Origin: Paenibacillus aceti
Lineage (GTDB): Bacteria > Bacillota > Bacilli > Paenibacillales > Paenibacillaceae
Length of the DNA stretch: 64,000 bases
Direction: 5' to 3'
Assembly: GCF_003614185.1 (NCBI RefSeq)
Contig: NZ_KZ987724.1
Location: 197,512 to 261,511 of the forward strand
How positions within the stretch are numbered: the first letter of the stretch is position 1; each line of letters opens with the position of its first letter. Below the pieces are notes generated by a model. It saw only the letters and a list, made by a program, of their open reading frames with translations, did not search any database and was not told where the DNA came from. This document shows positions 7,425-53,310 of the stretch, in pieces. Both the position numbers and the translations under genes were made by a program.

Positions 7425-7614
7425 GAAAAGCCTGCAAATGTGCAGGAATTTCACAAAAATTTCGACCTGCGAGAGTAAATTCCTGCGATAATGCAGGTTT
7501 TTTCTCCACATCGGCTCGTTTGTGAGGAAATATGAGGAAAAGCCTGCATATTCGCAGGCTTTTCTTAAAAACAGCTGAGTTTGGGCGAAAAAACTGCATA
7601 TTTGCAGGTTTCGA
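7425..7614. repeat. Family 2 four-unit palindrome array (copy A)
   Basis: Four imperfect 16-bp palindromes of the type CCTGCA-NNNN-TGCAGG, mostly flanked by AAAAG/CTTTT. Cores are at 7431-7446, 7482-7497, 7543-7558 and 7593-7608. Their centres are 51, 61 and 50 bp apart. A second array with the same order and spacing lies at 52937-53130. The stretch 7361-7674 holds no convincing gene; short open frames here are explained by the repeats. Confidence 0.85.
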
Positions 7615-7674
7615 GTGGTTTCGAGTCCATACGCGGTTTATACGTGTACGCATGTGTTCCGCAAACGGGCAGCA

Positions 7675-8598
7675 TTACTCCCACCAGTGCTTGTTCTCCG
7701 TTATCCCGACATCCCATAGCTTCGCATTCCCGGTCATCGTTATTTTAATCTCATGAACCTGGTCGAAGTGCATCTCTACAGGCACTACTTCATTACTATA
7801 TTCATTACTGGTCTGAAAGATGGTATTCCCATCCGCTTCAATCGAGACCTCGCCCTTGAATTCAACATCGTCAGGGATGCCATAGTTCGCGTAGAACTTA
7901 ACATCCTGCTTGTTTCCCAGACGGTAAGTATATTCTTTGCTAGATCCATCTTCACTACTATACAGGTTTAATTTCGGAGCTACTGTATGATTGGCCACAG
8001 TAAAGCTGGGAAGCTGATCTGTCTGTGCGGCGTTGCTGCCTACTTTTTCGTAATGGCTTAATGCTTGGATAGAGCTTTCTTTTTTCTGAATCGTTAAGTT
8101 AATGATCTCGGAGACAGCGATAATCCCCGCAAGGATCAGAGTCATAGATAATATGGCGGCGATAAGCTTCTTCGTAGTAATCTTGGCGGCAAACCCGATT
8201 CGATAGCCTATATATCCTGTGGTCGCGCCTAATGTATTGGAGATCACATCATCGACATCGAAGGTCCCTCGGAAGGTCAGCGACTGCATCGTCTCGGCAA
8301 TAAGTATCGCGAAGATGAAGAAGGCGATGAACCTTTTGAAGCTCATTTTAGGGAACAACCATGGGATTAATAAGCCGAAAGGAATGAATGCAGCGACGTT
8401 TCCAAAATCATAGATCCATGAGAAAGTAAGCTTGGGAAAGGTTAAAGGAACGCTACTTGGAACGAGCATAAATTCATATTCGATATAATCGACGGAATGC
8501 GCGATTCTATTAAAAGCGAAGAACTGAAAATATAATATTAATAGTGTATAAAGGATTGCTGCCAGGAGTATGAAGCGGCGTGTTGTAGTTTTTGTCAT
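7675..8598 (-). CDS. VanZ-like family membrane protein with C-terminal extracytoplasmic domain
   Basis: A 307-residue membrane protein. Residues 1-160 form a VanZ-like domain with four or five hydrophobic helices, including the conserved AFIPFGLLIPWL and the ETMQSLTFRGTFDVDDVISNT block typical of VanZ/YoaI-type proteins (the Gln-Ser-Leu and Asp-Asp-Val-Asn/Ser positions are visible). A further helix near 145-165 precedes a 140-residue hydrophilic, beta-rich C-terminal domain absent from short VanZ proteins, probably outside the membrane. GAGGT precedes the ATG at nine bases. VanZ gives low-level teicoplanin resistance in enterococci, but most homologues have no known role, and no van genes occur here. 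Confidence 0.8.
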   Translation of the reverse strand: MTKTTTRRFILLAAILYTLLILYFQFFAFNRIAHSVDYIEYEFMLVPSSVPLTFPKLTFSWIYDFGNVAAFIPFGLLIPWLFPKMSFKRFIAFFIFAILIAETMQSLTFRGTFDVDDVISNTLGATTGYIGYRIGFAAKITTKKLIAAILSMTLILAGIIAVSEIINLTIQKKESSIQALSHYEKVGSNAAQTDQLPSFTVANHTVAPKLNLYSSEDGSSKEYTYRLGNKQDVKFYANYGIPDDVEFKGEVSIEADGNTIFQTSNEYSNEVVPVEMHFDQVHEIKITMTGNAKLWDVGITENKHWWE

Positions 8599-8779
8599 TC
8601 AATGATTACCTCACATTTCAAGTAGAAAAATTGTAGTTGAAACCCTGAACTTTGCCGTTCGCGGGGATTATGTTCATAGAACGTCTCATCCTTTGAAATA
8701 GTTATACATTGAACATTTTTATATCAAATTAGAACTAATTGCATCGGGAGGTGGGGGGAGGTGTGCGCTGATTGGGTGT

Positions 8780-8817
8780 AAAAAAAAGGCGCGGAACAGT
8801 AACCACCATTCCGCACC
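8780..8817 (-). terminator. Rho-independent terminator of the GNAT gene
   Basis: On the minus strand GCGGAA pairs with TTCCGC and is followed by GCC and a run of eight T. It lies 26 bases beyond the stop of the acetyltransferase gene. The remaining 8599-8779 holds no feature I can support. Confidence 0.85.
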
Positions 8818-8842
8818 TGGTGTAAGACAGGATTAATGCCTA

Positions 8843-9331
8843 TTATGCCAAAAAATATACATAATCTATGTATTCACCAACAAAATCTTCACTATTTTGA
8901 TTCTTCCTTTGTTGATCTCTTGTAAACCCAACGCTCTCATACATTCGTTGAGCAGGGGTCAAGTCATCATTCGTAGTGACGATGATTTTTCTAACATCAT
9001 TTTGGACGATTCTATTGAACGCTTCTTGAAGCTGTACTTTGCCATAACCATTTCCTTTGTGTTTTGAGGCAACGCAATTATGGCCAATTTCCACATATTC
9101 AGGCATTTTTCTCGGGTCCCATGAAACAAATCCGATGACTTCATCGGCTAGTGTTGTTACGAACCCATATTGATCTGCAATTTGCAAATAGTCAAAGAAA
9201 AAGTCATCAAAAGCTTGCCAATCAGAATGGAAATTTTGCTCATACCTACCATCAAAAGAATACGCGTCTTTCAATAATTCAAACAGTATGCCTCGTTTAA
9301 AGTCGCTCACTTTTCTAAATTCGACATTCAT
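8843..9331 (-). CDS. GNAT family N-acetyltransferase
   Basis: A 162-residue single-domain protein with the GNAT acetyl-CoA motif (HKGNGYGKVQLQEAFNRI near residue 90, a Q/RxxGxG/A variant) and a following TTNDDLTPAQRMYESVGF block, which is the usual beta-5/alpha-4 signature. The substrate cannot be predicted. It is monocistronic on the minus strand with its own terminator, and is more AT-rich than the genes before 8.6 kb, like the island that follows. Confidence 0.85.
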   Translation of the reverse strand: MNVEFRKVSDFKRGILFELLKDAYSFDGRYEQNFHSDWQAFDDFFFDYLQIADQYGFVTTLADEVIGFVSWDPRKMPEYVEIGHNCVASKHKGNGYGKVQLQEAFNRIVQNDVRKIIVTTNDDLTPAQRMYESVGFTRDQQRKNQNSEDFVGEYIDYVYFLA

Positions 9332-9378
9332 GTACTAATCAGCACCGCCTTGGCAGCTATTTGAAGCATCTGCCCAAT

Positions 9379-9412
9379 AAAAAAACCGCCCCTTAGTAAA
9401 AGGAATGCGGTC
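9379..9412 (-). terminator. Possible terminator of the DUF4365 gene
   Basis: On the minus strand ACCGC...GCGGT with inner CCTT/AAGG pairing (a bulge is needed) is followed by seven T. It lies about 145 bases downstream of the DUF4365 stop; the stretch between holds nothing else recognisable. Confidence 0.5.
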
Positions 9413-9557
9413 ATCATATGACTTATCAGTGAATTCTGCCACGTTTGAAAACGGCTACCTGTATCATTTTTTCTCCAAACATGCTACGCACTCCACATGT
9501 GTCGAGATGACAGGGAGTATAACTAAATGATGGAATGACATTTGCTCACTTTTTATA

Positions 9558-10835
9558 TTAGATTATCTTCTCTAATTCATATTGAATAATCGCTAAATGG
9601 ACTGGAAACTTCTTGACGAATTGTGAGTATAAATAATACTCGTTTCCTTGTTCTTCTTGTGTTGCTATTGCAAGGTTATCTAAATCTATAAGGGCATCAT
9701 AAAGAACTCTGTTTAGTTTACGACATTCATAGGGTGGCAAAATGTCACTCATTAAATGGAAGTTTCTTCGATAGTATTTACTCTTCAAAATAAGATGTTC
9801 ATTAAATTCCCTTTTATCGGTTTTGTTAAAAAGTTCCGTTAAATTGGCCAACTCATACTTAGTGAATGAAAGCAATTCTCTAATTTCTTTCAAGTATTCA
9901 TTTTTGGAAGCGGAGTTTAATTTGAGGTACTCGTTCAAGGGTCTATAATTATCTTCCCATTTAATTCTTATATTATGACTTTCGATGTATTGGTCAAACT
10001 CCTTCAAGAGAATTGGCTCGTTGTTGCCATTGTTGTTGTTAGTCCATTCACTTCGGCAAATAGGTAAGCCAAATTCATGTTGGATTAAATCGTCATAAAA
10101 ATAAAGCCATATATAATCAGGATTACTTCCGTCACTACCTGTTTCTAAGACTTTTCTGAAATAATTATTGTTCTTCACTTTTTCATTTATTTTTTTAATA
10201 AGTTCAACTAAAGAATCCTTTGAACTTGCAAATGAACGTTCAACATATATTTTTGCACTAATCTTTCTTTTGGTGCCTGTTGGATTATCCTTTTCTTCCA
10301 GTATGGTAAAGTAGTATTCGCTTGTTTCTTGTTTTCTCCATTGTTGTAACTCATGTACTCCCACTTTTGAAATGCTCTCTATTGCATTATAAAATTCGAC
10401 ATCCTCTTTAACCTCATTTTGGATTGGTACTTTAATTCTTGTTGTCGATGTGTTTTTTCTCCAGTCTACACCCTTACCATCCAAATCCTGAAAAATATAT
10501 TTCTGAGCCCATATCCAGTAAGCTTTTTCCTCAGAAACACCGTAAATTACTAAGATGACTGGAAAATCACATACATCACAAAAGTTCAAAAATTTTATAG
10601 GACAATCAAAAACAATTGAGTCTTCATTATATTTCAGTTCACTTGTTGCCTTTAATTGCACCTTAATTATCTTAGCTGTAGTTTCACCTTCATTAGTAAA
10701 AACTTCAATCTCACCATCAATGTCATTGTCCTTTTCTTGTGTCCTGTATTTCCATCCATTGGAAACGATTGTTTTTTCAATAAATACTTTAGATAAATAC
10801 TCAGAAATTTGCTTTGAATCGAGCTTAGAACGCAC
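9558..10835 (-). CDS. DUF4365 domain protein (PD-(D/E)XK nuclease-like)
   Basis: A 425-residue protein whose first 150 residues match DUF4365. Visible are E12 in the first helix, DIDGEIE at 38-44, and KVQLKAT at 58-64. The E...D...QxK spacing is that of Mrr-like PD-(D/E)XK nucleases in which Gln replaces the second acidic residue. The remaining 275 residues are helical and unrecognised. GTG start behind AAAAGGAG. DUF4365 proteins are often found in or near defence islands (recalled knowledge); here the gene follows a HEPN-motif gene on the same strand in an AT-rich segment. A role in DNA cleavage or phage defence is inferred only. Confidence 0.75.
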   Translation of the reverse strand: MRSKLDSKQISEYLSKVFIEKTIVSNGWKYRTQEKDNDIDGEIEVFTNEGETTAKIIKVQLKATSELKYNEDSIVFDCPIKFLNFCDVCDFPVILVIYGVSEEKAYWIWAQKYIFQDLDGKGVDWRKNTSTTRIKVPIQNEVKEDVEFYNAIESISKVGVHELQQWRKQETSEYYFTILEEKDNPTGTKRKISAKIYVERSFASSKDSLVELIKKINEKVKNNNYFRKVLETGSDGSNPDYIWLYFYDDLIQHEFGLPICRSEWTNNNNGNNEPILLKEFDQYIESHNIRIKWEDNYRPLNEYLKLNSASKNEYLKEIRELLSFTKYELANLTELFNKTDKREFNEHLILKSKYYRRNFHLMSDILPPYECRKLNRVLYDALIDLDNLAIATQEEQGNEYYLYSQFVKKFPVHLAIIQYELEKII

Positions 10836-10895
10836 TACTTCGTCACTCCTTTTCAGGTACTAAACTTCTCTATTCAATCCATATGTTTATCAATT

Positions 10896-11074
10896 TTAAT
10901 ATGTAGGAGAATAGATTTTGTTAGTATCAGAGTCAATAACAAAATCCACTTGCACATCTGCCGAATACGGCACTATCTCAAAATTATGGAGTTTACAAAA
11001 TACTTCGGCTAGTTCCTTAATTTCTATGACTAATTTACAGTTTATTGGACTGTATCTTTTCTTTTAAGTCTCAC
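10896..11074 (-). pseudogene. Small ORF interrupted by one frameshift
   Basis: A GTG at 11074 has a good GGAGG ribosome site five bases upstream and starts a frame that stops after ten codons (VRLKRKDTVQ). Shifting one base at the A-rich CTTAAAAGAAAAG run joins it to an open stretch of about 55 codons (beginning YSPINCKLVIEIKELAEV, ending DTNKIYSPTY) that stops at 10896. The joined length, 179 bases, is not a multiple of three. It lies between the HEPN-motif gene and the DUF4365 gene on the same strand. It may be a decayed gene, a sequencing error, or chance; it matches nothing I know. Confidence 0.4.
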
Positions 11075-11125
11075 TGTAACCTCCGACTTGATTGTGTAGT
11101 AATGATGTCATCACGGAAACAATCA

Positions 11126-12097
11126 CTATACTACAGTGCTGCTCTTAAGCTTAAAGCAGCTAATAAATAAACCCAGTAGTTCTTCTGAACTCTTTACTGG
11201 AACCTTCTCGTCATTCTCATTTAATAAAAATGTACTACCATATTCAATACTGACTTCAAAACATGATGCTGCTATATCTTTTATAAGAATACATAAAGAA
11301 AGGAATACATCGAGAAACACTAGTAGTTCTCTCTGTCCCCAATCAGTATGAATATCATATCTCTGTGTTGTTGTAATCCCATGTACCAATTTATTTCTCA
11401 TTTCGAGAAATAGATCCATTGCAATTTTAATATCAGTATCAATGTCAAAAGCTTCTTGAATAGCCGAGAATAATCCTCCTAATGTTTTCTTCTCCCAGCC
11501 CTTAAAAAAATCATTAATTGTTTCATATTTTTTTTGTTGCTTTTCTGATACGGCAAATATAAAAGATTTCGAAAATAGATATTCAATTTCATGACATTGC
11601 GTCAAGGATAGCCCAATGGCACCATGGAGTTGATCGGCAATATTGATTCTAGGTTCATTTTCATAATTGTCATACTGGGGAAGTAGCTCATTTCTTTCTG
11701 AAAGAGCTCTTGCTCCAACGCTATAGGTATACCATTGGCCGTTAGTTTTTTTTGCGTAAACAACGTCCCGCAAAAGTGTCTGCTCCTCGTCATCTATAAC
11801 TCGGAACTGTGCCCCCAAATCTTCAAGCAGCCATTTATCAGCATACCAAGGCCATTGATGTAAGTCAGGTCTATTAGCTTGGTGTGGCGCATGTTCTTTT
11901 GACCAGTCTCTGAATTTCTTATCTGCTTTCTCTTCAAAAGTATCAGGTATATCCATTACACGCATAGCCGTAACATCGGACATATTAAATCCGTTCATAT
12001 TTACCTCAACACATTTTGCACTACGGCTATTTTTAGCCACCACAAAACAGTCCTCATAACCATCGGATTCAACCCAATATAATTTCCATTTCGCCAT
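11126..12097 (-). CDS. Unknown protein with a HEPN-type RNxxxH motif
   Basis: A 323-residue protein I cannot assign to a named family. The N-terminal half is mixed alpha/beta (MAKWKLYWVESDGYEDCF opens it). Residues about 155-285 are helical and contain EMRNKLVHG, so R234 and H239 form the R-x4-H motif with Asn after Arg that marks HEPN domains. HEPN proteins are commonly RNases in toxin-antitoxin and abortive-infection systems. The ATG has a GAGGTG site upstream. It heads a minus-strand cluster with the broken ORF and the DUF4365 gene, so a two-component defence unit is possible. Catalytic activity is untested, and many RNxxVHG proteins are not toxins. Confidence 0.65.
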   Translation of the reverse strand: MAKWKLYWVESDGYEDCFVVAKNSRSAKCVEVNMNGFNMSDVTAMRVMDIPDTFEEKADKKFRDWSKEHAPHQANRPDLHQWPWYADKWLLEDLGAQFRVIDDEEQTLLRDVVYAKKTNGQWYTYSVGARALSERNELLPQYDNYENEPRINIADQLHGAIGLSLTQCHEIEYLFSKSFIFAVSEKQQKKYETINDFFKGWEKKTLGGLFSAIQEAFDIDTDIKIAMDLFLEMRNKLVHGITTTQRYDIHTDWGQRELLVFLDVFLSLCILIKDIAASCFEVSIEYGSTFLLNENDEKVPVKSSEELLGLFISCFKLKSSTVV

Positions 12098-13145
12098 ATG
12101 AACACCTCTGTCCTATTATCTTCATAACAGATGTAATTGAGTAGGGTCGAAGTATTACGAGAATCTGTTATTACTGGATTATATAGAATACTAAAAAAGT
12201 CCAGTAGTATGAACTAAGACTTTTCTAAATCACATTTATGCGGAACCCTACCACACCTCATTTTCGATCTATAGTATACTAAGTTTTTGATGATTTCCTT
12301 CAAAACAAAAGCTCGAGCATAGTTATTATGCCTAAGTTTTTAACAACAACTATGCTCAATGTTGCCATTTATTTTCTCATTAAGAATTTTAATGCATAGA
12401 TATATGAGAACATTTCTATCTAAGAATGATGGGCTTGTAGGAAAAAATGGTCTATACAAGTAAGAAACTTTCAAAATAATCTACGAAACGATACCTCAGT
12501 CTCTTTGGACGTGCCACTTAAGAGTCCAGGATACTAGATCTGAAAGATTAAAATATTCTTCAGTTAAGATAACCTCTTTTAGTTGGCTTGGTAATATACT
12601 AAAACATGACTTCCGGAGTCACTTGTTTAATCATACATGTGGTATCGGGGAGACTTATCCTTATATTTGTTACTGGGTCCATAGTCAAAAGGTGCACATA
12701 CACGTTTTAACGTATGCAGATCTTCGTTGGAGAAAATGTTACGAGTATTTTCCTTTTTTCGTGGATAGCTTTAATAAAAATATCATGCATGTCAGACCCT
12801 CAATATTGGTTGGATTTTCCTGATACTATAAATCTATTTTATCACCAAAATCATTATTATGGGAGTCGTAGTCCGCTACTTTGAATGAACGATTTGGTCT
12901 ACAGAAAAAGAGAACCCAAGCACTGTCTACGCTTGAGGTCATTATTTCCAGAAATGTTATGCTATAAATTAACATTTAAACTAATATTAATAATATTCAA
13001 GAGAACAATCAGTAACCCAAACCAACGTTAAAGCTCAAGCATTTTACAGCTTGAGCCTTTTGTGGTATCAGTTAAATTTGGATTTAAATCGCTACTTCTC
13101 AACAACACATAGCAATACACAATCTTTAAGCGAACCTGCCATATC
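12098..13145. other. AT-rich stretch of about 1 kb without a supported gene
   Basis: Open frames are short and carry no recognisable motif; the longest, 66 codons from 12623, has no good ribosome site. Three hairpins are visible: GAGCATAGTT/AACTATGCTC at 12315-12357, CAAGC/GCTTG at about 12912-12935, and GCTCAAG/CTTGAGC at 13033-13056 followed by CTTTT. They may be relic terminators of lost genes. It separates the accessory island from the RlmCD gene and could hold an island boundary, but I see no direct repeat or tRNA. Confidence 0.5.
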
Positions 13146-14660
13146 TCATTTTCGAACCATCAATATTACCGTCTCCACATGACTCGTCTGCGGGAACATA
13201 TCTACCGGCTGCGCCCACTCCAAGGTGTAGCCGCCGTCCAGTAGGTCTTTGCAATCCTTGGCCAGTGTGGACGGATTGCAGGAGACATAGACGAAGCGCT
13301 CCGGCTTCGTGCGCAGCACCGCTTCGATGAAGCGGGGATCAAGGCCGGTGCGCGGCGGGTCGGCGACGATCACGTCAGGGGAGAAGCCGCTCTTGACCCA
13401 GCGCGGCAGCAGCTCCTCGGCATAGCCTTCGTAGAAGGCGGCATTGCTGCGCCCGTTGCGCTGCGCGTTGGCTTTGGCGTCCTCGACCGCCTCCGGGATC
13501 GACTCGATCCCGCGCACCTCGCGGGCGTAGGGCGCCAGCCACAGGCCTATTGTGCCGGTACCGCAATAGGCATCCACGACCGTCTCCTTGCCGGTCAGCC
13601 CGGCGGCAGCCCGTACGGTCTCGTACAGCTTCACCGTCTGCAGCGGATTCAGCTGGAAGAAGGCGCGCGGAGACAGAGTGAATTCCAGATCGCCCAACGA
13701 CTCCTGGATGCTCTCCTCACCCCACAGAATGATCGTCCGATGACCGAACACCAGCGAGGTGTTCTTCGGATTGATATTCATCGCGATGCTCGTAAGCTCC
13801 GGTATGGCGAGCCGTAACTCCTTGATTAATTGCTCCTGTTTTGGCAATTTATCGCTGCTCGTCACGAACGTAATTTGCAGTTCTTCGGATTGAAATCCCC
13901 AGCGCACCACGATGGTGCGGACGAGCCCTTGATTGCTTTTCTCCTTATATACTGGAATCTGCAGCCGTTGCAGTACCTTGCGTGCCTGATCTACGGCTTC
14001 ATTCACCTTAGGATGCTGGATTGGACAGCCTTTAATGTCGATCAGTTGATGAGAATCCGCCGCATACAATCCGGCGATCAATCCCTCGGAACCCATGCCC
14101 AGCTGGAGCTGCGCCTTGTTTCGGTAGCCCCAGGGATGATCCATGCCCAGGATCGGCTTCAGCTTGATCTTCTCAAGTCCGGTATAGCGTGAGAAGGCCT
14201 CGCGCAAGATCTCTTCCTTGGCGGCCAGTTGTCCTTCATAAGACAGATGCTGGATCTGGCAGCCGCCGCAGATGTTAAATACCGGACATGGGGCATCAAC
14301 CCGATGAGGGGAGCGCTTCTCGATTTGCTTGATCACAGCTCCAATATATCTGGCCTCTGCTTTAGTGACCTCAGCCTTGATGACTTCTCCCGGTAGAGCT
14401 CCGTTAATGAAGACCGCTTTCCGACGGTAATATCCGACGCCCTCGCCGTTGATTCCGAGCCGCTTGATCGTCACGACGATCCGGTCCCCTACGCGAAGCT
14501 CCTCCGCCGAGTCCCGGCTAGTGATGCGATCTGCTACAGGGCGCTTCTGCTTCTCCTTCTGTTTTGAACCGGGCCTGGAATAAGGCTTTGATGCTGTATG
14601 TGATGCTTTTTGTGCTGTTTTATGTGCTTTCTGTGCTTGATGATTAGGTCTGCCTTTCAT
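13146..14660 (-). CDS. rlmD: 23S rRNA (uracil-C5)-methyltransferase, RlmCD/RumA family
   Basis: A 504-residue enzyme that methylates C5 of uridines in 23S rRNA with SAM. A basic 50-residue extension (Lys, Gln and His rich) precedes a TRAM domain (GDRIVVTIKRLGINGEG, residues 57-115). The iron-sulfur cluster cysteines are in CPVFNICGGCQ near 125. The SAM site DAYCGTGTIGLWLA is near 360, the motif ADPPRTGL near 430, and the catalytic SCNPSTLAKD near 460. In Firmicutes one enzyme (RlmCD) usually does both U747 and U1939, so the RlmD label is by family only. ATG behind GGAG; monocistronic on the minus strand. Confidence 0.93.
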   Translation of the reverse strand: MKGRPNHQAQKAHKTAQKASHTASKPYSRPGSKQKEKQKRPVADRITSRDSAEELRVGDRIVVTIKRLGINGEGVGYYRRKAVFINGALPGEVIKAEVTKAEARYIGAVIKQIEKRSPHRVDAPCPVFNICGGCQIQHLSYEGQLAAKEEILREAFSRYTGLEKIKLKPILGMDHPWGYRNKAQLQLGMGSEGLIAGLYAADSHQLIDIKGCPIQHPKVNEAVDQARKVLQRLQIPVYKEKSNQGLVRTIVVRWGFQSEELQITFVTSSDKLPKQEQLIKELRLAIPELTSIAMNINPKNTSLVFGHRTIILWGEESIQESLGDLEFTLSPRAFFQLNPLQTVKLYETVRAAAGLTGKETVVDAYCGTGTIGLWLAPYAREVRGIESIPEAVEDAKANAQRNGRSNAAFYEGYAEELLPRWVKSGFSPDVIVADPPRTGLDPRFIEAVLRTKPERFVYVSCNPSTLAKDCKDLLDGGYTLEWAQPVDMFPQTSHVETVILMVRK

Positions 14661-14749
14661 GATATATCTCCATCCTGCATTCAGTTTGTTTACTGCAAAT
14701 GATACCTTGTAGCGTGTCCACGGTCAATGAACCGGCGGTGTGGTGAGAA

Positions 14750-14931
14750 TAACGAAACACCATATCGTTATTTCCGCGAAATCAGCATCCATTCAAATCT
14801 AACGAAACACCATATCGTTATTTGAGTAAAATTCCGTCGTTTAGCCCCTTTTTGCCATAATAACGATACCCTGTTTCGTATAAATTTTAAATCACTCCTT
14901 TTGGCGCAAATAGCGATACGTAGTTTCGTTA
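14750..14931. repeat. Family 1 four-unit repeat element (copy 1, reversed)
   Basis: Two forward TAACGAAAC units start at 14750 and 14800, and two reversed GTTTCGTA/GTTTCGTTA units end at 14881 and 14931. Each unit is an imperfect palindrome (TAACGA...TCGTTA). The reverse complement aligns along its length, spacers included, with the copies at 32773 and 39840. Offsets between paired units are exactly 50 bp. The rest of 14661-15097 holds no supported gene; a loose GTTNGTCATTG-like repetition runs from about 14980 to 15080. Confidence 0.9.
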
Positions 14932-15097
14932 CAACTTAGCGCATTTAAAGCAGCCTTCAAAGTAGCAACAGTAGTTTACACGCATAGTTGGTCAGTGTTG
15001 ATCATTATTGGTTATTGTTAGTCATTGTCGGGTAATCGTCGATTGTAGTTATCATGGGGTCAGTGTTGGTCATGTTGGGGTTACAAGAGGGGCAGGA

Positions 15098-15670: not shown

Positions 15671-15871
15671 TATTTTCCCTCCGTGGTTCGATTATTGTAT
15701 TCTTACCTTTAAAATGTTGAAAAGTTGCGTTCCGTGGGAAATAGCTGAAAATCTGCTGCGGATTTACCAGTTTCTCGATTTGCCCATTTGTGAAAAGCCC
15801 AGTAAACTTAATGAATAGAAGCTGGCCCGTCAGACAGAGCGGGCAGGAACGGTGCAATAAGGAGATATGAT

Positions 15872-17707: not shown

Positions 17708-17722
17708 GGTTGTGAACAGAGC

Positions 17723-20049: not shown

Positions 20050-20165
20050 GCAACCGCCCCCTTTGATTTGATTCAGAGTGGCGGACATCCCAAGGGGGAA
20101 GGTTACTGATAAGAAAAAGAATGAACTTTTCTTACGTCCGGACTACCGACCGGAGCTGTGTTTTT
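20050..20165 (-). promoter_or_regulatory. Candidate yjdF riboswitch
   Basis: The minus-strand leader of yjdF is long and structured. A CCGG...CCGG hairpin lies near 20140-20155. Closer in, CCCCCTT (20098-20092) can pair with AAGGGGG (20063-20057), which is the ribosome site, while CCGCC (20084-20080) can pair with GGCGG (58-54) overlapping it. Mutually exclusive pairing at the ribosome site fits translational control. The call rests on gene identity plus this pairing; the published consensus was not aligned, and the 5' edge is approximate. Confidence 0.6.
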
Positions 20166-20241
20166 ACACTCTATTTTCATTATTCATAAATATGTCTTTC
20201 ATTTCAAGATCATTTTCACTATTAATGAATAAGGAGACTTC

Positions 20242-20478: not shown

Positions 20479-20482
20479 TCTC

Positions 20483-20503
20483 TAACGAAACGCCATATCG
20501 CTA
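20483..20503. repeat. Solitary family 1 unit
   Basis: TAACGAAACGCCATATCGCT and the following bases match the terminal unit of the family 1 elements, including spacer sequence (TTTTCGC, then an A/G-rich run). No partner unit is found 50 bp away. It lies just upstream of the NOS ribosome site. Confidence 0.75.
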
Positions 20504-20530
20504 TTTTCGCAAAAAAGGGGAGGTATCATA

Positions 20531-32772: not shown

Positions 32773-32955
32773 TAACGAAACTAGGTAACGCTATTTGCAT
32801 CAAAAGCAGCCCTTTCAAAATCTAACGAATCTGGGTATCGCTATTAGAGCCAATAGGGGACAAAATAGTGGATTTTCACCGGAATAACGCTATGGTATTT
32901 CGTTAGGTTTGGGTGGATGCTTATTTCGTGAAAATAGCGATATGGAGTTTCGTTA
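32773..32955. repeat. Family 1 four-unit repeat element (copy 2)
   Basis: Forward units start at 32773 and 32823 and reversed units end at 32905 and 32955, each pair offset by exactly 50 bp. Spacers align with copies 1 and 3. Left flank AAATTT and right flank GAGCTC are shared with copy 3. It lies between a GNAT gene and the ilv T-box. The rest of 32956-33159 holds no gene. Confidence 0.9.
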
Positions 32956-39745: not shown

Positions 39746-39778
39746 GAAAGCTTGCATATTTGCGGGCTTTTTCTTATT
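39746..39778 (+). terminator. Terminator made from a solitary family 2 palindrome
   Basis: AAAGCTTGCA (39747-39756) pairs with TGCGGGCTTT (39761-39770), followed by TTCTTATTTT. The core CTTGCATATTTGCGGG is a variant of the family 2 unit found in arrays at 7.4 and 52.9 kb, here acting as the end of the aldo/keto reductase gene. Confidence 0.75.
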
Positions 39779-39839: not shown

Positions 39840-40022
39840 TAACGAAACTACGTATCGCTATTTGCGCCAAAAGGAGCGATTTCAAAATCTAACGAAACTG
39901 GATATCGCTAATGCGTCAAAAAAGGGGTTGAATGGTAGATTTCTGCTCAGATAGCGGTATGGTGTTTCGTTAGATGGGAATAGGTGCTGATTTTGTTCGA
40001 ATAACGATATGGCGTTTCGTTA
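39840..40022. repeat. Family 1 four-unit repeat element (copy 3)
   Basis: Forward units start at 39840 and 39890; reversed units end at 39972 and 40022, each pair offset by 50 bp. TIR-like ends TAACGAAAC/GTTTCGTTA bound a 183-bp element. Its spacer GCGCCAAAAGGAG also occurs, reversed, in copy 1. It lies directly before the glycerol dehydrogenase remnant. Confidence 0.9.
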
Positions 40023-41814: not shown

Positions 41815-41832
41815 TTATTAATTCATAATAAC

Positions 41833-42630: not shown

Positions 42631-42718
42631 TTTGCAAATCGATTGAAATTTTGCACGGTTCGGTGATCTCCAAGTATGTACTAGCATCTAACGGTATCAA
42701 TCAACATTGGAGGCTGCT

Positions 42719-45255: not shown

Positions 45256-45261
45256 TCAGAC

Positions 45262-45296
45262 AAGGGCACTCCTCATTTGGGGGTGCTCTTCAATTT
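45262..45296 (+). terminator. Terminator of codBA
   Basis: AAGGGCACTCC pairs with GGGGTGCTCTT, followed by CAATTTT. The stem is 10-11 bp. Confidence 0.8.
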
Positions 45297-45361
45297 TCAC
45301 ATATTTTTTAGAGAAAATGAGTATTTTTAATCGAAATCTCTTTTTTCGACAGTATCTCTGA

Positions 45362-45391
45362 TTGACGTTTTCTGAAAAAGTTTACTATGAT
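45362..45391 (+). promoter_or_regulatory. Sigma-A-like promoter of the histidine kinase gene
   Basis: TTGACG at 45362-45367 and TATGAT at 45386-45391, separated by 18 bases, about 50 bases before the gene. Confidence 0.6.
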
Positions 45392-45442
45392 TAAAATATG
45401 GCTTTTGTACAAGCTGATATAAGGAGTTGGTAGTAAAGATCA

Positions 45443-46651: not shown

Positions 46652-46695
46652 CTCAGTTACAGCGATAGAGTCGTATGGGGTCGATATGAAGAATA

Positions 46696-46740
46696 GGGGC
46701 ATCCCGGGTCAGTAGCTGACCGTGGGATGCCCCAGTTTTG
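46696..46740. terminator. Terminator between kinase and feo genes
   Basis: GGGGCATCCC (46696-46705) pairs with GGGATGCCCC (46724-46733), with an inner GGTCA/TGACC hairpin. AGTTTTG follows on the plus strand. Confidence 0.88.
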
Positions 46741-46765
46741 TTGCTGCTATTCGATACACGAGCTC

Positions 46766-46942
46766 TCAGGATTTGCTGCAGGTAGAAGCTGATGAATGGT
46801 TGCTATCATCGCTATTGCAGGCAGCACAGGAATTACGCTGGGAGCAGCCTGCGCAGGCCCCCTTCTTGCTCTTCTTGAAGCCGCGGTAGAGCGCGAATGC
46901 GGCAAATCCGAAGACGACGCCAACGATCAGGATATCGGCCAT
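46766..46942 (-). CDS. FeoB-associated Cys-rich membrane protein
   Basis: A 58-residue protein with one N-terminal membrane helix (MADILIVGVVFGFAAFALYR), a basic KKSKKG stretch, then a cytoplasmic Cys-rich tail (CAGCSQRNSCAAC). This is the pattern of the FeoB-associated family (PF12669), thought to assist ferrous iron uptake in Firmicutes. The ATG at 46942 has GGAA nine bases upstream. It is the last gene of the feoA-feoB operon, 33 bases after feoB. Confidence 0.88.
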   Translation of the reverse strand: MADILIVGVVFGFAAFALYRGFKKSKKGACAGCSQRNSCAACNSDDSNHSSASTCSKS

Positions 46943-46975
46943 GAATAACACTTCCTTTCCTTGAATCTATGGCTC

Positions 46976-48994
46976 TTATGCGAATCCGAGCAATCTGCCG
47001 CCTTGATAGATGATGAAAGACATAATGTAGGCGAGCCCTAAGGAATAGAAAATAGAGAATAAAGTCCATTTCCAGGAGGCCGTCTCTTTGCGCAGAACCC
47101 CTACGGTAGCCAGACAAGGTGTATATAACAATACGAAGACCATGAAGCTGTAGGCTTGCAATGGGGTAAAGGCCATTGCAATTTGTCCGATAAGTCCGCT
47201 CATATCCGAGGCATGATAGATAATAACCATCGTGGATACGACGACCTCTTTAGCCATAAATCCGGTAATCAGCGCGGCCCCTGACTGCCAGGTTCCGAAG
47301 CCAAGCGGCTGCAGCATCGAAGCGAACAGACCACCGATCCAGGCCAGGAAGCTGTCATCCATCGTCTCTGCTACCCCTCCAGGACCCAGATAGGTGAGCA
47401 GCCAGATCAGTACGGAGCCGCCGAGAATGAAGGTCCCTGCCTTGCGCAGGAAGCCTTTGCCTTTCTCCCAAGTGCTGCGGAACAAGGTAACGGATTGCGG
47501 CATCCGGTAAGGCGGCAGTTCGACCATGAAGAAGGACTTGGAGTCCTTGAACATGAACATGGAGAACAGCTTGGCCAATAAAAGCGCCAGAACAATGCCT
47601 AGCAAGTATAAAGAGAATACGATGAGCGCCTGGGAGCGGGCGAAGAATATTCCCGCGAACAGGGCATAAACTGGCAGTCTGGCAGAGCAGGACATCAGAG
47701 GTACGAGCAGCATCGTCAGCATCCGTTCCTTTGACTGCTCGATACTGCGCGAGGCCATGATACCGGGAACATTACAGCCGAAGCCGATAATGAACGGAAT
47801 CAGCGCTTTGCCGTTAAGGCCAGCCAGTTCCATGACTTTGTCCATCATCACTGTGATCCGTGCCATATAACCTGAATCCTCTATGAAGGAGATGATCAGG
47901 AACATAATGAAGATCTGCGGTATGAAGACGAGTACGCCACCGACCCCGCCGATGATCCCTTCGGTCAATAACGCTCGGGTGAATTCCGAGGCACCCACTG
48001 CTACAAGTCCTTGATCTACCCATGTACTGACAGGTCCGGATATGAAGCCCTCCAGTAGGTCTGAGAGCGGAGTACCGAGCCAATCGAAGGTCAGCATGAA
48101 GGTAAGGAGCATGAATAGTAGAAAGATGGGAATCCCCCAGATTGGATGGGTGACTATGGCATCTATTTTTTCAGTCAGTGTGTTAGGCTTACGGTTCGTC
48201 GCATCTACAACTCTTGCGCAGATATCGCGAATCAGCTTCGTTCTTACAGAATGGATATGCTCTTGAACGGTTGTTTCGACGCCTGATTTATGCAGTCTTT
48301 GCTCAGCCAGATCGCAAATCGATTGGATCTTGGCTTTGACCTCATCCCCAATCGCTAGTGAACGGAGAACGGCATCATTGCGCTCGAGTAACTGGAGAGC
48401 GATGAAGCGCTCCGAAGGGCTATGCTCTGGCAGCACGGAATTTAATTCCCGGGAAATGTTGCTGATCGCTGCTTCAACTGCATTTCCGTAATCGATGTGA
48501 AAATCCGGCGCCTGAATGGAATGGCTGCTGATCAAATGCAGCAGCTCCTCCGCGCCTTTTCCCGCCCGGGCTACGAGCGGCACGACAGGTACTCCGAGAC
48601 TGCTCGCTAGAGTCTCAGAGTGAATGCGTAGACCATTTGATTTGGCGACATCCATCATATTAAGTCCGATGACTAACGGCTTCCCGTATTCCAGTAATTG
48701 AAAGGTTAAATACAGGTTCCGCTCCAGTTGAGAAGCATCGACGATATTAACTAATAAGGAAGGTGAATCTGTAACCAGATATTCCGCAGCGATGCCTTCA
48801 TCGCGCGATAAAGGATGCAAGGTGTATATACCGGGGAGGTCGGTCAGTGCTCCGCTTTTATTCTTGAGCTGTCCGACTTTTTTCTCGACGGTAACGCCTG
48901 ACCAATTACCTACATATTCGTAAGAACTAGTCAGTGTATTAAAGAGGGAGGTCTTACCTGTATTCGGGTTGCCGATCAGCGCTGCACTACTCAT
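46976..48994 (-). CDS. feoB: Ferrous iron transporter FeoB
   Basis: A 672-residue membrane protein with an N-terminal G domain: G1 GNPNTGKTSLFN near residue 8, G3 DLPGIY near 53, and G4 NMMD near 111. A helical GDI-like region follows, then two Gate domains with about 8-10 helices (GFGCNVPGIMASR and MSCSARLPVYALF are the conserved Cys-containing gates). It imports Fe2+ with GTP hydrolysis. It overlaps feoA by four bases. Confidence 0.95.
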   Translation of the reverse strand: MSSAALIGNPNTGKTSLFNTLTSSYEYVGNWSGVTVEKKVGQLKNKSGALTDLPGIYTLHPLSRDEGIAAEYLVTDSPSLLVNIVDASQLERNLYLTFQLLEYGKPLVIGLNMMDVAKSNGLRIHSETLASSLGVPVVPLVARAGKGAEELLHLISSHSIQAPDFHIDYGNAVEAAISNISRELNSVLPEHSPSERFIALQLLERNDAVLRSLAIGDEVKAKIQSICDLAEQRLHKSGVETTVQEHIHSVRTKLIRDICARVVDATNRKPNTLTEKIDAIVTHPIWGIPIFLLFMLLTFMLTFDWLGTPLSDLLEGFISGPVSTWVDQGLVAVGASEFTRALLTEGIIGGVGGVLVFIPQIFIMFLIISFIEDSGYMARITVMMDKVMELAGLNGKALIPFIIGFGCNVPGIMASRSIEQSKERMLTMLLVPLMSCSARLPVYALFAGIFFARSQALIVFSLYLLGIVLALLLAKLFSMFMFKDSKSFFMVELPPYRMPQSVTLFRSTWEKGKGFLRKAGTFILGGSVLIWLLTYLGPGGVAETMDDSFLAWIGGLFASMLQPLGFGTWQSGAALITGFMAKEVVVSTMVIIYHASDMSGLIGQIAMAFTPLQAYSFMVFVLLYTPCLATVGVLRKETASWKWTLFSIFYSLGLAYIMSFIIYQGGRLLGFA

Positions 48995-49233
48995 GAGACA
49001 GCCACCTTAATTTCCGCAGCTTCCTTCTGACGAATTCCGAGCAATTGCCCGCTGCATTCCAGCATTAACGGTCCACCGCAAGGGCAGTAACGTTTAATGG
49101 TGATATTCGATCCGATCGAGATTCCCAGATCAGCAAGACGGCGCTTCAATGCAGGGTCAATTGCCCCAAAATGCGATATCTCTGCGGAAATTCCCGGTTT
49201 CAGACCAAGCAGACAGTTGTGACAGGCAGACAT
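48991..49233 (-). CDS. feoA: Ferrous iron transport protein FeoA
   Basis: An 80-residue cytoplasmic SH3-like protein. LGLKPGISAEISHF and LADLGISIGSNITI are the FeoA signature; the C-terminus (GQLLGIRQKEAAEIKV) is complete. It carries an extra Cys pair (CHNC at 4-7) as in other Firmicute FeoA. AAGGAG precedes the ATG. First gene of the Fur-controlled feoA-feoB-small membrane protein operon. Confidence 0.93.
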   Translation of the reverse strand: MSACHNCLLGLKPGISAEISHFGAIDPALKRRLADLGISIGSNITIKRYCPCGGPLMLECSGQLLGIRQKEAAEIKVAVS

Positions 49234-49301
49234 AGTAGATCGACTCCTTATTAAATTAGTTTAGAATCTTAGATATAGAATAGTCTCATAAGTAGACAAA
49301 G

Positions 49302-49328
49302 AATAATGATCTATGGGAGATCATTATT
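49302..49328. repeat. Inverted repeat in the feoA leader
   Basis: AATAATGATCT and AGATCATTATT flank ATGGG: a perfect 11-bp inverted repeat between the Fur box and feoA. It could be a second operator or an RNA hairpin. A further AT-only inverted repeat (ACTAATAT/ATATTAGT) lies at about 49338-49366. Confidence 0.6.
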
Positions 49329-49380
49329 AATGTAGGAACTAATATTAAATAACAATTTATATTAGTTAATAATATCTGAT

Positions 49381-49399
49381 ATTGAGAATCAATCTCAAT
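49381..49399. promoter_or_regulatory. Fur box
   Basis: ATTGAGAATCAATCTCAAT is a 19-bp near-perfect palindrome of the classical Fur type (TTGAGAATNNNNCTCAA class). It lies 148 bases upstream of feoA, fitting iron repression of the feo operon. The plus-strand aldolase gene starts 140 bases on the other side and might share it. Confidence 0.8.
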
Positions 49400-49538
49400 T
49401 ACTAGAATCAATATATCAAATCATAAAATAAACAACTGTGATAAGTGTCACATAAAATTATATGTTTCGCTTTACATTTTCAATTACCTTCAAGTAAGAT
49501 GGATAATAAAACATATATGATTGGAAAGGGATAGGCCG

Positions 49539-50498
49539 ATGAAAGCGAACAAATGTAAGATTGTCGATTGCACCATTCGCGATGGTGGGTTAGTGAATAA
49601 CTGGGATTTCAGCGTGGAGTTCGTTCAGAAGCTGTATGCTAGTCTGAATGAAGCGGGCGTAGATTATATGGAAATCGGATATAAGAATTCTCCCAAGCTA
49701 TTAAAGGGTGCAGATCAAGCGGGGCCTTGGCGCTTCCTGGATGACGATTTCCTGCGCAAGGTAATCCCTGAGAAGGGAAAGACCAAGCTATCTGCTCTGG
49801 TTGATATCGGGCGGGTGGATGAGAATGATATTCAGCCACGCAGTGAAAGTATGATAGATCTGATTCGTGTAGCTTGCTATATCAAGGATGTGGATAAGGC
49901 GCTGGAGCTGGTGCAATTATTCCATGACCGCGGCTATGAGACAACGATCAACATTATGGCATTGTCTAATGTAATGGAGAATGAGCTGCTCGAAGCGTTC
50001 GAGATGATTAAGGATAGCGTCGTTGACGTTGTATATATCGTCGATTCTTACGGCAGCCTTGACTATAAAGATATGGAATACCTGGTGAATAAATTCAAGA
50101 CCCATTTGCCGAATAAGCGCTTAGGTGTTCATACGCATAACAATATGCAGTTGGCCTTCTCAAACACGCTCGTCGCTGCCGATCACGGGGTTGAACTGCT
50201 TGACGCTTCCGTATACGGAATGGGACGTGCGGCAGGGAACTGTCCTACAGAATTACTAGTTACTCATCTAAAAAATACGAAATACAATCTTCGTCCATTG
50301 ATGACTGTGCTCGAAGAGTTAATGATTCCACTTCGCGAGAAGGAAGAGTGGGGATACTTGATCCCCTACATGATTACCGGCACGTTCGATGAGCATCCTC
50401 GGTCAGCGATGGCGCTTCGCGCATCGGAGGATAAGGATAAAGTCGTGGATTTTTACGATAAGCTTACGACGCCTGAAGTGAATTTCAAGACGAAGTAA
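49539..50498 (+). CDS. DRE-TIM type aldolase domain protein
   Basis: A 319-residue TIM-barrel protein of the HMGL-like/DRE-TIM metallolyase superfamily. The metal motif is DCTIRDGGLVN near residue 10 and the metal His pair is LGVHTHNN near 200. YGMGRAAGNCPTELL near 235 fits the 4-hydroxy-2-oxovalerate aldolase branch. There is no C-terminal regulatory domain as in LeuA. ATG at 49539 behind GGAAAGGGA; an in-frame TTG lies 18 bases upstream. Monocistronic, with no dehydrogenase partner, so the substrate is open. Confidence 0.8.
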   Translation: MKANKCKIVDCTIRDGGLVNNWDFSVEFVQKLYASLNEAGVDYMEIGYKNSPKLLKGADQAGPWRFLDDDFLRKVIPEKGKTKLSALVDIGRVDENDIQPRSESMIDLIRVACYIKDVDKALELVQLFHDRGYETTINIMALSNVMENELLEAFEMIKDSVVDVVYIVDSYGSLDYKDMEYLVNKFKTHLPNKRLGVHTHNNMQLAFSNTLVAADHGVELLDASVYGMGRAAGNCPTELLVTHLKNTKYNLRPLMTVLEELMIPLREKEEWGYLIPYMITGTFDEHPRSAMALRASEDKDKVVDFYDKLTTPEVNFKTK

Positions 50499-50697
50499 GC
50501 TTAGAGAGCGCCATTATTATGAAATAAAATTTTACTGAGAAAAGTCCGGTTATCTTAGGGGAGCCGGGCTTTTTGTCGTAGACAGAGGATGGAGGGGGTG
50601 CGAATTTTGTCGTCGACTGCAGGAATAAGGCAGGAAAAGAGCGGGCGATGTTGAATTGTACAACTAATGAATATACCTCCGGGGGTTGAGAGCGCAA

Positions 50698-52809
50698 ATG
50701 GGTACAAAGAGAGATAGAAGGACAGCGATGATCCAAGGAGGACTCGGCTTGGCAGGCATGTTAGGCTTATTTATAGCGTTAGCCAGGTCAGGCAGTCTGG
50801 GGATATCAGATAGTAGCTTGAGAGCACTGCTGGTTCTGGCTGGTCTCGTCTGCGGGACATTCTCCTTTGCGATTTTTGCACAGGGCTGGATTCTTTTTGC
50901 AGACAAGCTGTCGCGGCAGCGTTTGTATGCGGCGGTGCTGTTTTTCATCGTTGGGTTATTAGATATTCTACATATTTCGGCGTTTAGCGGATTAGAGCTA
51001 TTCGGTGTACAGACAGGACTACATCTATCCGACACTTTGTTAGCGATTTCTCATCTGCTGGGCGTATTGGGGATTTTGTTTATTTTCAGTACAGAGGATC
51101 GGCAGGTCTCAGGCAAGCATAAAATGATCGCCTTCACCGCAGCCGCATTGCTAAGCGTAATCGGGATCGGACTATTATATACATATCAGTGGAGTCACTC
51201 CACTTGGCTGGAATACAATGGACGCAGCACCGGGAATACGATCATTTGGGTGGGGACGCTTCCGGTCATTGTGTTGGCGGTTATATCGATGATTCATCGC
51301 TCCCAGAAGGATAGCTCATCCGCTGCGCTTACGATGGTTAGGGCGCTTATGTTCATGCTGATGGGACATGTTCTGCTGCTGACTGTTGATATGCATACCA
51401 GCTTGCTTCATGCAGCCGGAGAGTGGTATATGGTTATCGCCTATTATTTCGTCCTTAAGGGAGTGTATCGCCTTACGATTGAGGAGCCGTTCCATGATCA
51501 GCTGGCTGTTGAGGCCCGGATGAAGTATATGGTCTATCATGATGATCTGACCGGACTTCCTAATCTGAGGCGTATGAAGGAGGAGCTTGTGCACGCAGCT
51601 CGTACCGTTGGTTCTTCCTGCATCGGCGTGACGGTGATTAATATCGACCGATTTAAGGCGATTAATGATTCCCTCGGTTATAGTGCGGGTGACAAGATGC
51701 TTATGGAGGTCGGTGAGCGGCTGTCCGAGGTCTGCCAGGGAGCGGAGAGCGTGTATCGGATGGGCGAGGATGAATTCGCAGTCATCTTGCCGAAGTTGAA
51801 CGATGCGGCAGCTGCCGAAGAGCATGCGGTGAATTTGCTTCATACGGTCAATCCGTCGGTCATTCTCGATGAGACAGAGTATCATATTTCGCTCTCGATG
51901 GGCTTGGCAGTATTCCCTGTGGATAGTACCTCGGTGGAGCAGATCATTCGATACGCCGACATGGCTGTTCATCATGCCAAGGAGCAGGGGCAGGAGTTCG
52001 CACGTTATGCCGATACGATGAAGCAGGCTATTCAGGCCAGAGTCGAGCTGGAGAATGATCTGCGCAAGGCGCTGGAGGCGGAGCAATTCTTCCTCGAATT
52101 CCAGCCGCAATTCAGTTTGCATACGGATCAAATGGTGGGAATGGAGGCGCTGGTCCGCTGGAATCATCCGAAGCGGGGCGTCATTCCGCCGGGAGAGTTC
52201 ATTCCGATTGCCGAGGAGAGCGGGTTGATCGTACAGCTTGGGGAATGGGTGCTGAGGACGGCTTGCCAGTACAATAAACAGTGGCAATTAGCAGGTTATC
52301 CGCCGGTGTGCGTCTCTGTCAATCTGTCGATGCGGCAATTCCGGCAGTACAATCTCGCTGAGCGAATTGGAGCCATCCTGGAGGAGGTTGGCTTGGAAGC
52401 GAAGTATTTGGAGCTGGAAGTCACGGAGAGTATGACGTATGATATCGAGACGGCGCTGAGCCAGCTACATAGCTTGAAGCAACTGGGAATACATATTAGC
52501 ATTGATGATTTCGGAACAGGCTATAGCTCCCTCTACTATTTAAAAAGCCTGCCGATCGACCGTCTGAAGATCGATCGTTCCTTCGTCCAGGAATTGATGC
52601 TGGACGGAAATGACGCCGCCATCGTGTCCACGATTACGACGATGGCACATCACCTGCAGCTGAAGGTGACCGCTGAGGGCGTTGAGAGTCCGGAACAGCT
52701 TGAGTTCTTGAAGCGGCAGAACTGCCATGAGGGCCAGGGCTTCCTGTTCAGCAAGCCCGTGCCCGCAGCGGTGTTCGAGAATCAGTTTCTTAGCCGACTT
52801 GTCGGCTAG
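50698..52809 (+). CDS. Membrane GGDEF-EAL protein (MASE-type sensor)
   Basis: About 703 residues. The N-terminal 250 residues have seven or eight hydrophobic helices ending in YYFVLKGVYRL, as in MASE3-type sensors. The GGDEF domain (about 275-430) has RMGEDEF, so the second Gly is Glu and cyclase activity is doubtful. The EAL domain (about 450-695) is intact: MEALVRWN, NLSMRQF, ELEVTESM, DDFGTGYSSL, KIDRSFV, AEGVE. It is therefore probably a c-di-GMP phosphodiesterase. A TTG at 50686 directly abuts GGGGG, so the ATG at 50698 is preferred, though weakly. Monocistronic. Confidence 0.88.
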   Translation: MGTKRDRRTAMIQGGLGLAGMLGLFIALARSGSLGISDSSLRALLVLAGLVCGTFSFAIFAQGWILFADKLSRQRLYAAVLFFIVGLLDILHISAFSGLELFGVQTGLHLSDTLLAISHLLGVLGILFIFSTEDRQVSGKHKMIAFTAAALLSVIGIGLLYTYQWSHSTWLEYNGRSTGNTIIWVGTLPVIVLAVISMIHRSQKDSSSAALTMVRALMFMLMGHVLLLTVDMHTSLLHAAGEWYMVIAYYFVLKGVYRLTIEEPFHDQLAVEARMKYMVYHDDLTGLPNLRRMKEELVHAARTVGSSCIGVTVINIDRFKAINDSLGYSAGDKMLMEVGERLSEVCQGAESVYRMGEDEFAVILPKLNDAAAAEEHAVNLLHTVNPSVILDETEYHISLSMGLAVFPVDSTSVEQIIRYADMAVHHAKEQGQEFARYADTMKQAIQARVELENDLRKALEAEQFFLEFQPQFSLHTDQMVGMEALVRWNHPKRGVIPPGEFIPIAEESGLIVQLGEWVLRTACQYNKQWQLAGYPPVCVSVNLSMRQFRQYNLAERIGAILEEVGLEAKYLELEVTESMTYDIETALSQLHSLKQLGIHISIDDFGTGYSSLYYLKSLPIDRLKIDRSFVQELMLDGNDAAIVSTITTMAHHLQLKVTAEGVESPEQLEFLKRQNCHEGQGFLFSKPVPAAVFENQFLSRLVG

Positions 52810-52936
52810 GAAGCTGATGGGGGAGAGGGAGAGCGGGAGTTGGCGGCCTTGCTAGTCTCAAGCAGAATTGCAGTATCGCATTGTCATATTATCGCCCCCG
52901 TTCCGCCCTTCCGCCGGTATCTCGGGGCATCGCGCT

Positions 52937-53130
52937 AGAAAAGCCTACAGAAATGCAGGCTTTTAACCCTCATAAGCCTCTCAAAGAGGAAATTCCTGCG
53001 AAAATGCAGGTATTTCGGATCGTAACGCCCGAATTCACGCGAATACGAGAAAAAGCCTGCATAATCGCAGGCTTTTTGCTTGAGCTGCCCATTTTTGGGA
53101 TAAAAAGATGTATTTTTGCAGGCTTTTCTA
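52937..53130. repeat. Family 2 four-unit palindrome array (copy B)
   Basis: Palindromic cores at 52944-52959, 52995-53010, 53056-53071 and 53107-53122 (the last decayed on its left arm). Centres are 51, 61 and 51 bp apart, matching copy A unit for unit. A 91-codon open frame runs across the array, but its peptide (ACIIAGF, RCIFAGF) simply repeats the palindrome. Confidence 0.85.
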
Positions 53131-53153
53131 TTTGGGACCTTGTCGATGAGCTC

Positions 53154-53310
53154 TAACGAAACTTTAGATCGCTATTGCAGCATCAGAGGCACTAACTGAG
53201 CTCCGACGAAACCAACTATATTACTTTAACGGCGGCATACGGCACACAAGACGAATCGAACTCTAATGAAGCGCCAGTGGGACTTTAACGAAACCCCATA
53301 TTGCTATTGT
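53154..53310. repeat. Degenerate family 1 array
   Basis: TAACGAAAC at 53154, CGACGAAAC exactly 50 bp later at 53204, TAATGAAGC at 53264 and TAACGAAAC at 53286. The GAGCTC next to the first unit matches the outer flank of copies 2 and 3, suggesting a reversed, decayed and rearranged copy. It starts 32 bp after family 2 copy B. Apart from these arrays, 52810-53392 has no supported gene. Confidence 0.65.

Follow-up and report, generated by a model that had tools for sequence, protein, structure and literature searches.

Palindrome tetrads on a helical lattice in the Paenibacillus order look like sequence-encoded sites for bending DNA around a putative protein

INTRODUCTION

Nucleosome-positioning DNA carries A/T-rich steps every ~10.2 bp over 150 to 190 bp, held in one rotational phase. 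Among the repeats of bacteria, BIMEs alternate in orientation. In the portions of the reports drawn on here, the REP, BIME, and REPIN sequences of proteobacteria are short intergenic palindromes that form regular composite sets, in many copies and with species-specific sequence (PMC2817692, PMC3116915, PMC3733652). In Bacillus, Subirana and Messeguer described tandem repeats with a constant length of 52 nt and a species-specific sequence (PMC8161180; PMC6749651; PMC8625621). These 52-nt repeats are reportedly abundant in Paenibacillus, and a nucleoid protein or an RNA has been offered as a possible reason for their constant length (PMC8161180).

Here, we analyze sets of four palindromes (tetrads) in a 64-kb stretch of DNA, hereafter the window, from a Paenibacillus genome that we designate G000, and in related genomes. 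The tetrads share with REP, BIME, and REPIN sequences the features listed above, but BIME orientation alternates, whereas the tetrads of family 1 (F1) are arranged ++--, with two units one way and two the other. With the 52-nt repeats they share a constant pitch (51 to 53 nt in the 52-nt repeats, as given in the cited portions), species-specific sequence, and the presence of several families per genome. The 52-nt repeats are head-to-tail arrays, mostly of 4 to 10 units (PMC8161180), whereas the tetrads are dispersed ++-- sets with a central step of 61 to 62 bp. A first-pass annotation of the window knew of no described element with such an architecture. That statement needs qualifying, as constant-length 52-nt repeats were already in print; what stands is that the four-unit inverted form does not appear in the portions of PMC8161180 consulted. 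Likewise, we found no description of dispersed ++-- tetrads with phased A/T tracts in the consulted parts of the literature on 52-nt repeats, and among the papers listed by our literature searches none described such tetrads. The tetrads are best seen as inverted, dispersed variants of the 52-nt constant-length repeats.

RESULTS

Elements in the window. Unit centers were located with matrix models of the F1 and family 2 (F2) units. The window contains the following elements:

7426..7613, no strand, F2 tetrad of CCTGC...GCAGG palindromes; unit centers 7438.5, 7489.5, 7550.5, 7600.5; spacing 51/61/50; span 162
14750..14931, + strand, F1 tetrad (++--), TAACGAAAC...TATCGYTATT; unit centers 14760, 14810, 14871, 14921; spacing 50/61/50; span 161
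20483..20505, + strand, lone F1 unit without a tetrad (matrix scan, score 46.7)
32773..32955, + strand, F1 tetrad (++--); unit centers 32783, 32833, 32895, 32945; spacing 50/62/50; span 162
39746..39771, no strand, lone F2 unit (matrix scan), 25 bp beyond a gene end; 91.5 bp separate its center from that of unit 1 in the F1 tetrad at 39840
39840..40022, + strand, F1 tetrad (++--); unit centers 39850, 39900, 39962, 40012; spacing 50/62/50; span 162
52939..53127, no strand, F2 tetrad; unit centers 52951.5, 53002.5, 53063.5, 53114.5; spacing 51/61/51; span 163
53154..53308, + strand, pair of same-direction F1 units 132 bp apart and off register (matrix scan), probably a relic

The first-pass annotation had counted the spacings of the five window copies by hand. 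The matrix-scan centers agree exactly with those counts (spans of 161, 162, and 162 bp for F1; 162 and 163 bp for F2), which removes the concern that the geometry, 50/61-62/50 for F1 and 51/61/50-51 for F2, was a counting artifact. Elsewhere in the window there is a match to the azaaromatic (yjdF) riboswitch at 20065-20177 on the - strand; a T-box leader at 53789-54088 on the + strand, ahead of a gene (54217-55251) that resembles pheS by look; and a 107-nt repeat in three copies at 58938-59359, 66 to 73% alike and 105 and 210 bp apart.

Geometry across the source genome. We sampled 464 kb of the 5.6-Mb genome, namely the window and the 400 kb to its right. At score 8, this sample contained 73 F1 and 52 F2 units, compared to none of either in a first-order Markov sequence of equal length; at score 6, the counts were 74 and 52, compared to 0 and 1. 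At score 5, 75 F1 units formed 25 groups and 55 F2 units formed 24 groups. Every complete tetrad retained the fixed geometry: the 12 complete F1 groups all lay at 50-51/61-62/50, and the nine complete F2 groups all lay at 50-51/61/50-51, so the variable spacing that would have told against a shared metric was not seen among the complete tetrads of these 464 kb. Nine F1 groups had two or three units, and all but one pair, 132 bp apart, were in register; half of the F2 groups (12 of 24) were single units.

We then used a larger set from G000, adding loci L002-L059 to the 464 kb and allowing a tolerance of 48-53/59-64/48-53. The 44 F1 tetrads, all oriented ++--, were spaced at 50/62/50 (39 tetrads), 50/61/50 (four), or 51/62/50 (one), and the 33 F2 tetrads at 51/61/51 (20), 50/61/51 (eight), or 51/61/50 (five). 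F2 units are nearly symmetric, and their linkers appear inverted too, judging by inspection of the consensus. Conserved sequence stops ~13 to 20 bp outside the outer unit centers, giving an element of ~190 bp. Linkers are partly alike within F1 and within F2, and the two arms are inverted copies of each other, forming terminal inverted repeats of the kind found in MITEs. By inspection of L001-L030, the F1 arms nevertheless differ: in many copies, the unit spacers of the left and right arms carry CC on the same strand, which gives the element a polarity despite its inverted half-sites. Eight times in the 464-kb sample, an F1 group and an F2 group are no more than 600 bp apart, perhaps only because both families avoid genes.

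One lattice, many palindromes. The first-pass annotation had claimed a common metric without common sequence and had suggested searching genus genomes for palindrome geometry blind to sequence. Our sequence-independent scan sought four mutually similar segments in ++-- arrangement, with a pitch of 30 to 75 bp and a center step of 30 to 95 bp allowed. In 1.26 Mb from seven genus genomes, it returned 49 tetrad-like loci at a score of at least 84, nine of them from G003 and in part tandem arrays. The same-direction pitch was 50 to 51 bp in 44 of the 49 loci (50 in 32 loci and 51 in 12), with 30, 42, 49, 52, and 75 bp occurring once each. This is a constant length as in the 52-nt repeats, F1 at 50 bp falling one below the 51 to 53 nt printed in the portions of the reports consulted. 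Two genomes, G009 and G018 (100 kb each), had no on-lattice locus in the scan. In Escherichia coli K-12, used as a control, the full grid gave one match (pitch 42) in 50 kb, and a pitch of 46 to 55 with a center step of 50 to 74 gave none in 150 kb. In 12 further genomes of the order (400 kb), 18 loci passed, of which nine had a pitch of 50 to 51, one a pitch of 53, and eight lay elsewhere; several of these off-lattice loci look coding or low-complexity, and two, in G253, are palindromic.

Grouped by eye, roughly eight to ten further types of palindrome sit on the F1 lattice, and the claimed common metric without common sequence is supported. Palindromes on the lattice include TAACG..CGYTATT in several inner versions, CCTGCA..TGCAGG, TATTGGA..TCCAATA, TTAACTG..CAGTTAA, TAAATGG.., and TGTAGCG..CGCTACA, among others; palindromes other than F1 were found in G011, G050, G054/G023, G024, G032, and G217. 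Automatic palindrome centers are noisy where palindromes are weak, and we trust them only for the high-scoring loci of G024, G050, and G217 and for one of G054. The step between inverted units is ~6 helical turns, or 7 turns in two families. Two arrays in G003 contain inverted units, with same-direction units 49 to 50 bp apart and opposite-direction units 58 to 62 bp apart, and in G008 there is a single +-- group, whose units include a 47-bp step, plus a weak pair at 55. Because the spacings are whole turns (~5 for same-direction units, 6 or 7 for inverted units), the four palindromes would face one side of the DNA.

A/T phasing. Independent evidence for the proposal of 5/6/5 helical turns, with all units on one DNA face, comes from base composition. 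A/T-rich stretches recur every 10.0 bp in F1 and every 10.2 bp in F2, through units and linkers alike. Measured from the dyad, the two families are in phase, with peaks in both near 0, 10, 20, 40, 50, 60, 71, and 91 bp from it. The linker A/T profiles of the two families correlate at 0.63 at zero shift and equally at a shift of -1. Because copies within one genome are homologous, the phase is independent only between families. For the periodicity test, we took the elements with the most frequent spacing (39 F1, 20 F2) and compared them with 3,700 overlapping intergenic windows. With the units masked, the linkers alone exceeded the 95th percentile of these controls in every element (39/39 F1, 20/20 F2); whole elements exceeded the 99th percentile in 20/20 F2 and 19/39 F1. 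The F1 series is interrupted at the unit centers, and a 53-bp unit-centered F1 profile peaks at 8.0 rather than 10.2.

The dyad is an A/T maximum in 50 of 52 tetrads from 12 other genomes, a set in which some tetrads overlap (arrays of G003 and G024), some are orthologous (G054/G023), and one, in G008, is doubtful. The two exceptions have a center gap of 70 in window register, or ~72 bp (7 turns) between palindrome centers by inspection; a center gap one turn longer should flip the phase at the dyad. In G217, where the pitch is 53, the A/T period is 10.6. Static curvature predicted from wedge parameters is high in F2 (19/20 below the 5th percentile of controls) and not in F1 (1/39). The tetrads thus have an A/T periodicity of ~10.2 bp in fixed phase, as in nucleosome-positioning DNA, and differ from it in being bacterial and in carrying four sequence-specific palindromes.

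Unit symmetry. The first-pass annotation attributed the shared metric to a common machine, either a protein that binds four sites or a four-hairpin RNA. The protein fits the observations. A noncoding RNA with four hairpins would explain why the units are palindromic, and transcription of the 52-nt repeats of B. coagulans, which are related, is reported in the portions consulted of PMC8161180 and PMC8625621. However, within F1 and F2 units, the pairing of opposite bases is close to the frequency predicted for independent columns (the excess reaches at most 0.15, at one position in the outer flank), an A.C mismatch interrupts the stem of roughly half of the F1 units, and a folded RNA would not predict a 10-bp A/T phase. 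At Rfam gathering scores, the window had four matches, all of them away from the elements. At one variable position across F1 versions, the half-sites change together (51% paired compared to 25% expected); this fits a two-fold protein site and would also fit a hairpin. Overall, we consider the RNA the least probable of the explanations weighed here, with very little chance of being correct.

Gene context. With a simple gene caller, 23/23 F1 and 18/18 F2 groups scoring >15 in the 464 kb were intergenic. Many lie shortly after gene ends, as expected if they were clusters of terminators or insulators downstream of genes; F2 units resemble two-way terminators, and one lone F2 unit is 14 to 15 bp from two convergent gene ends. 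Against this explanation, F1 stems are A/T-rich and often mismatched, and a lattice of 5/6/5 turns with phased linkers would be superfluous for termination, which makes it highly unlikely as an account of the tetrads. Lone F2-type palindromes 14 to 63 bp past gene ends (window 39746-39771; positions 285472 and 377426 of the 464 kb) do resemble ordinary two-way terminators. No recurrent neighbor gene stood out at 110 loci, most of 8 kb and all picked for F1-like sites: the largest cluster of neighbor proteins covered 13 of the 110 at a median distance of 2.0 kb. No shared gene was seen by eye in the open reading frames of seven loci from six low-copy genomes and of one G016 locus.

Distribution. 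Of 41 genus genomes, 27 matched a family-1-like pattern, permitting a 14- to 40-bp gap, at least once and 23 (own count) five times or more; across the order, the figures were 156 of 296 and ~105 (hand count). Matches ranged from 0 to 487 per genome, and one tetrad may yield several. Because a reversed-pattern control gave 0 to 3 matches per genome, a count of one to four is uncertain evidence for the pattern in a genome. The matches listed mostly have a pitch of 50 bp or an inverted step of 61 to 62 bp, with exceptions in G024 (43 to 45 letters) and G128 (48 and 56 to 57), and the pattern occurs in species-specific versions. Members of the genus can do without the F1 type, since 14 of the 41 genomes have no match. 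Among the 80 of 110 F1-like-pair stretches listed, all come from Paenibacillus, Cohnella, or other Paenibacillaceae. One F1 element used as a query had no match in plasmid and phage records, and the F1-like two-unit pattern was found in one viral contig.

Conservation between close species. We aligned G054 with G023 in 60 blocks of >400 bp at 96% identity and recovered seven element pairs. The five clean pairs contain 54 substitutions (36 in linkers and 18 in units) and no internal indel; the sole indel, of 2 bp, is at the margin of a fourth unit. For four of the clean pairs, the flanks contain 83 substitutions and 11 indels (the flank of the fifth pair was omitted, one side not being homologous), a ratio that, in this small sample, predicts ~6 to 7 indels in the elements. 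These counts suggest that length may be under selection, the elements accepting substitutions and almost no indels. Of the two remaining pairs, one has lost 50 bp between its first two units, turning four units into three, and the other has lost its first unit. The scarcity of indels in the five pairs tells against shared descent as a sufficient explanation, in which each family had one founder and the metric was inherited without function. Linkers that are partly alike within F1 and within F2 are what it would predict, but eight to ten palindrome types (by eye) on one metric and the same A/T phase in different families are not, and we judge it very improbable.

Spread by copying. The nine G054 tetrads in 400 kb comprise five with intact counterparts in G023, one with a damaged counterpart, one inside an indel of 515 bp whose ends lie well beyond the element, and two without matching flanks in the G023 stretch. 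In the other direction, all six sites of G023 tetrads are present in G054, one there with the 50-bp deletion. Between close species, the elements mostly keep their positions. This was not so at sufB, a single locus compared across more distant species. The gene occurs in 40 of 41 genomes, and we examined 1.5 kb downstream at 30 loci: tetrads were present in G000 (two), G050, and G006 (at the cutoff score of 80), and G003 and G008, whose SufB is 99% identical, had none. Shared linkers and the end of conservation near the outer units imply that the elements have spread by copying.

Such copying is what one would expect of a selfish miniature mobile element whose four sites assemble a transposition complex acting in trans, so that only correct copies propagate and the geometry is thereby preserved. 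Copies in G032 match over 185 to 209 bp in 10/10 pairs, G003 has tandem arrays, and the missing elements at sufB in G003 and G008 also speak for it. On the other hand, no target-site duplication of the kind expected for a MITE stood out at any offset in G000, where 44 F1 and 33 F2 elements were compared (best z of 4.4 in 7,350 offset/length combinations per family), no transposase was seen beside any element inspected, and positions are kept between species 96% alike. In G125 (L383-L388), the repeated unit that encloses a tetrad is 369 to 504 bp, exceeding the tetrad itself, compared to ~190-bp copies elsewhere. Neither of the two transposase families profiled occurs in every element-rich genome. 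Matches to Y1_Tnp (RAYT/IS200) are lacking in 20 of the 41 genus genomes, including nine with at least 40 pattern matches, and we reject a RAYT/REP identity; the GTAG/CGTC end tag given in the consulted part of PMC3733652 is also lacking, F1 units starting with TAACG and F2 units with CCTGC by inspection. IS110 has no match in four genus genomes that are similarly rich in the pattern (40 or more matches) and is not needed as a mobilizer. We regard the mobile element as unlikely, though it merits more weight than the other alternatives. In G000 itself, there are 14 Y1_Tnp matches of equal score in 157-aa frames, which are an IS200-like element.

DISCUSSION

The phased A/T stretches and the near-random pairing within unit stems argue that the tetrads are very probably lattices of double-stranded DNA. 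As our main reading, we propose that each is the scaffold of a cooperative, DNA-bending, wrapped protein particle, to which we assign a probability of roughly 0.6. The ~190-bp element would hold one nucleoprotein particle, in which a sequence-specific protein, present in four copies that are probably dimers, would occupy the four palindromes, and the A/T-rich stretches every 10.0 to 10.2 bp through units and linkers would let the DNA bend easily around the protein core. The recognition sequences would change fast between species. Local chromosome folding or constraint of supercoils seems the most likely role of such a particle, and a role in chromosome structure is a tentative suggestion at somewhat less than even odds.

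No binding protein emerged from the sizes of the neighbor-protein clusters at the 110 F1-like loci or from an AsnC/Lrp profile of the 41 genus genomes. AsnC/Lrp-type regulators occur in all 41, including those without a pattern match, and G000 and G054, which both hold several element families, have one match each; an Lrp/AsnC octamer as the binder is not supported by these counts.

More speculatively, and with rather less confidence than the scaffold itself, the tetrads could be a bacterial counterpart of the nucleosome-positioning code: order-wide intergenic wrapping sites read by fast-changing proteins that build one particle of 5/6/5 turns. If so, some bacteria encode chromosome structure in DNA in a manner so far tied to histones, and the metric outlives complete turnover of the recognized sequence. 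The unexplained 52-nt repeats of Bacillus would then gain a unit (the palindrome) and a lattice rule (whole turns, with inversion costing one turn). A palindrome taken from the printed 52-nt consensus has matches in 21 of 398 genomes of class Bacilli. Five stretches from four of those 21 genomes contain 26 units at steps of 51 to 52 bp, interrupted by a single 100-bp gap, and show an A/T period of 10.2 bp; at the palindrome center, however, their A/T phase is opposite to that of F2.
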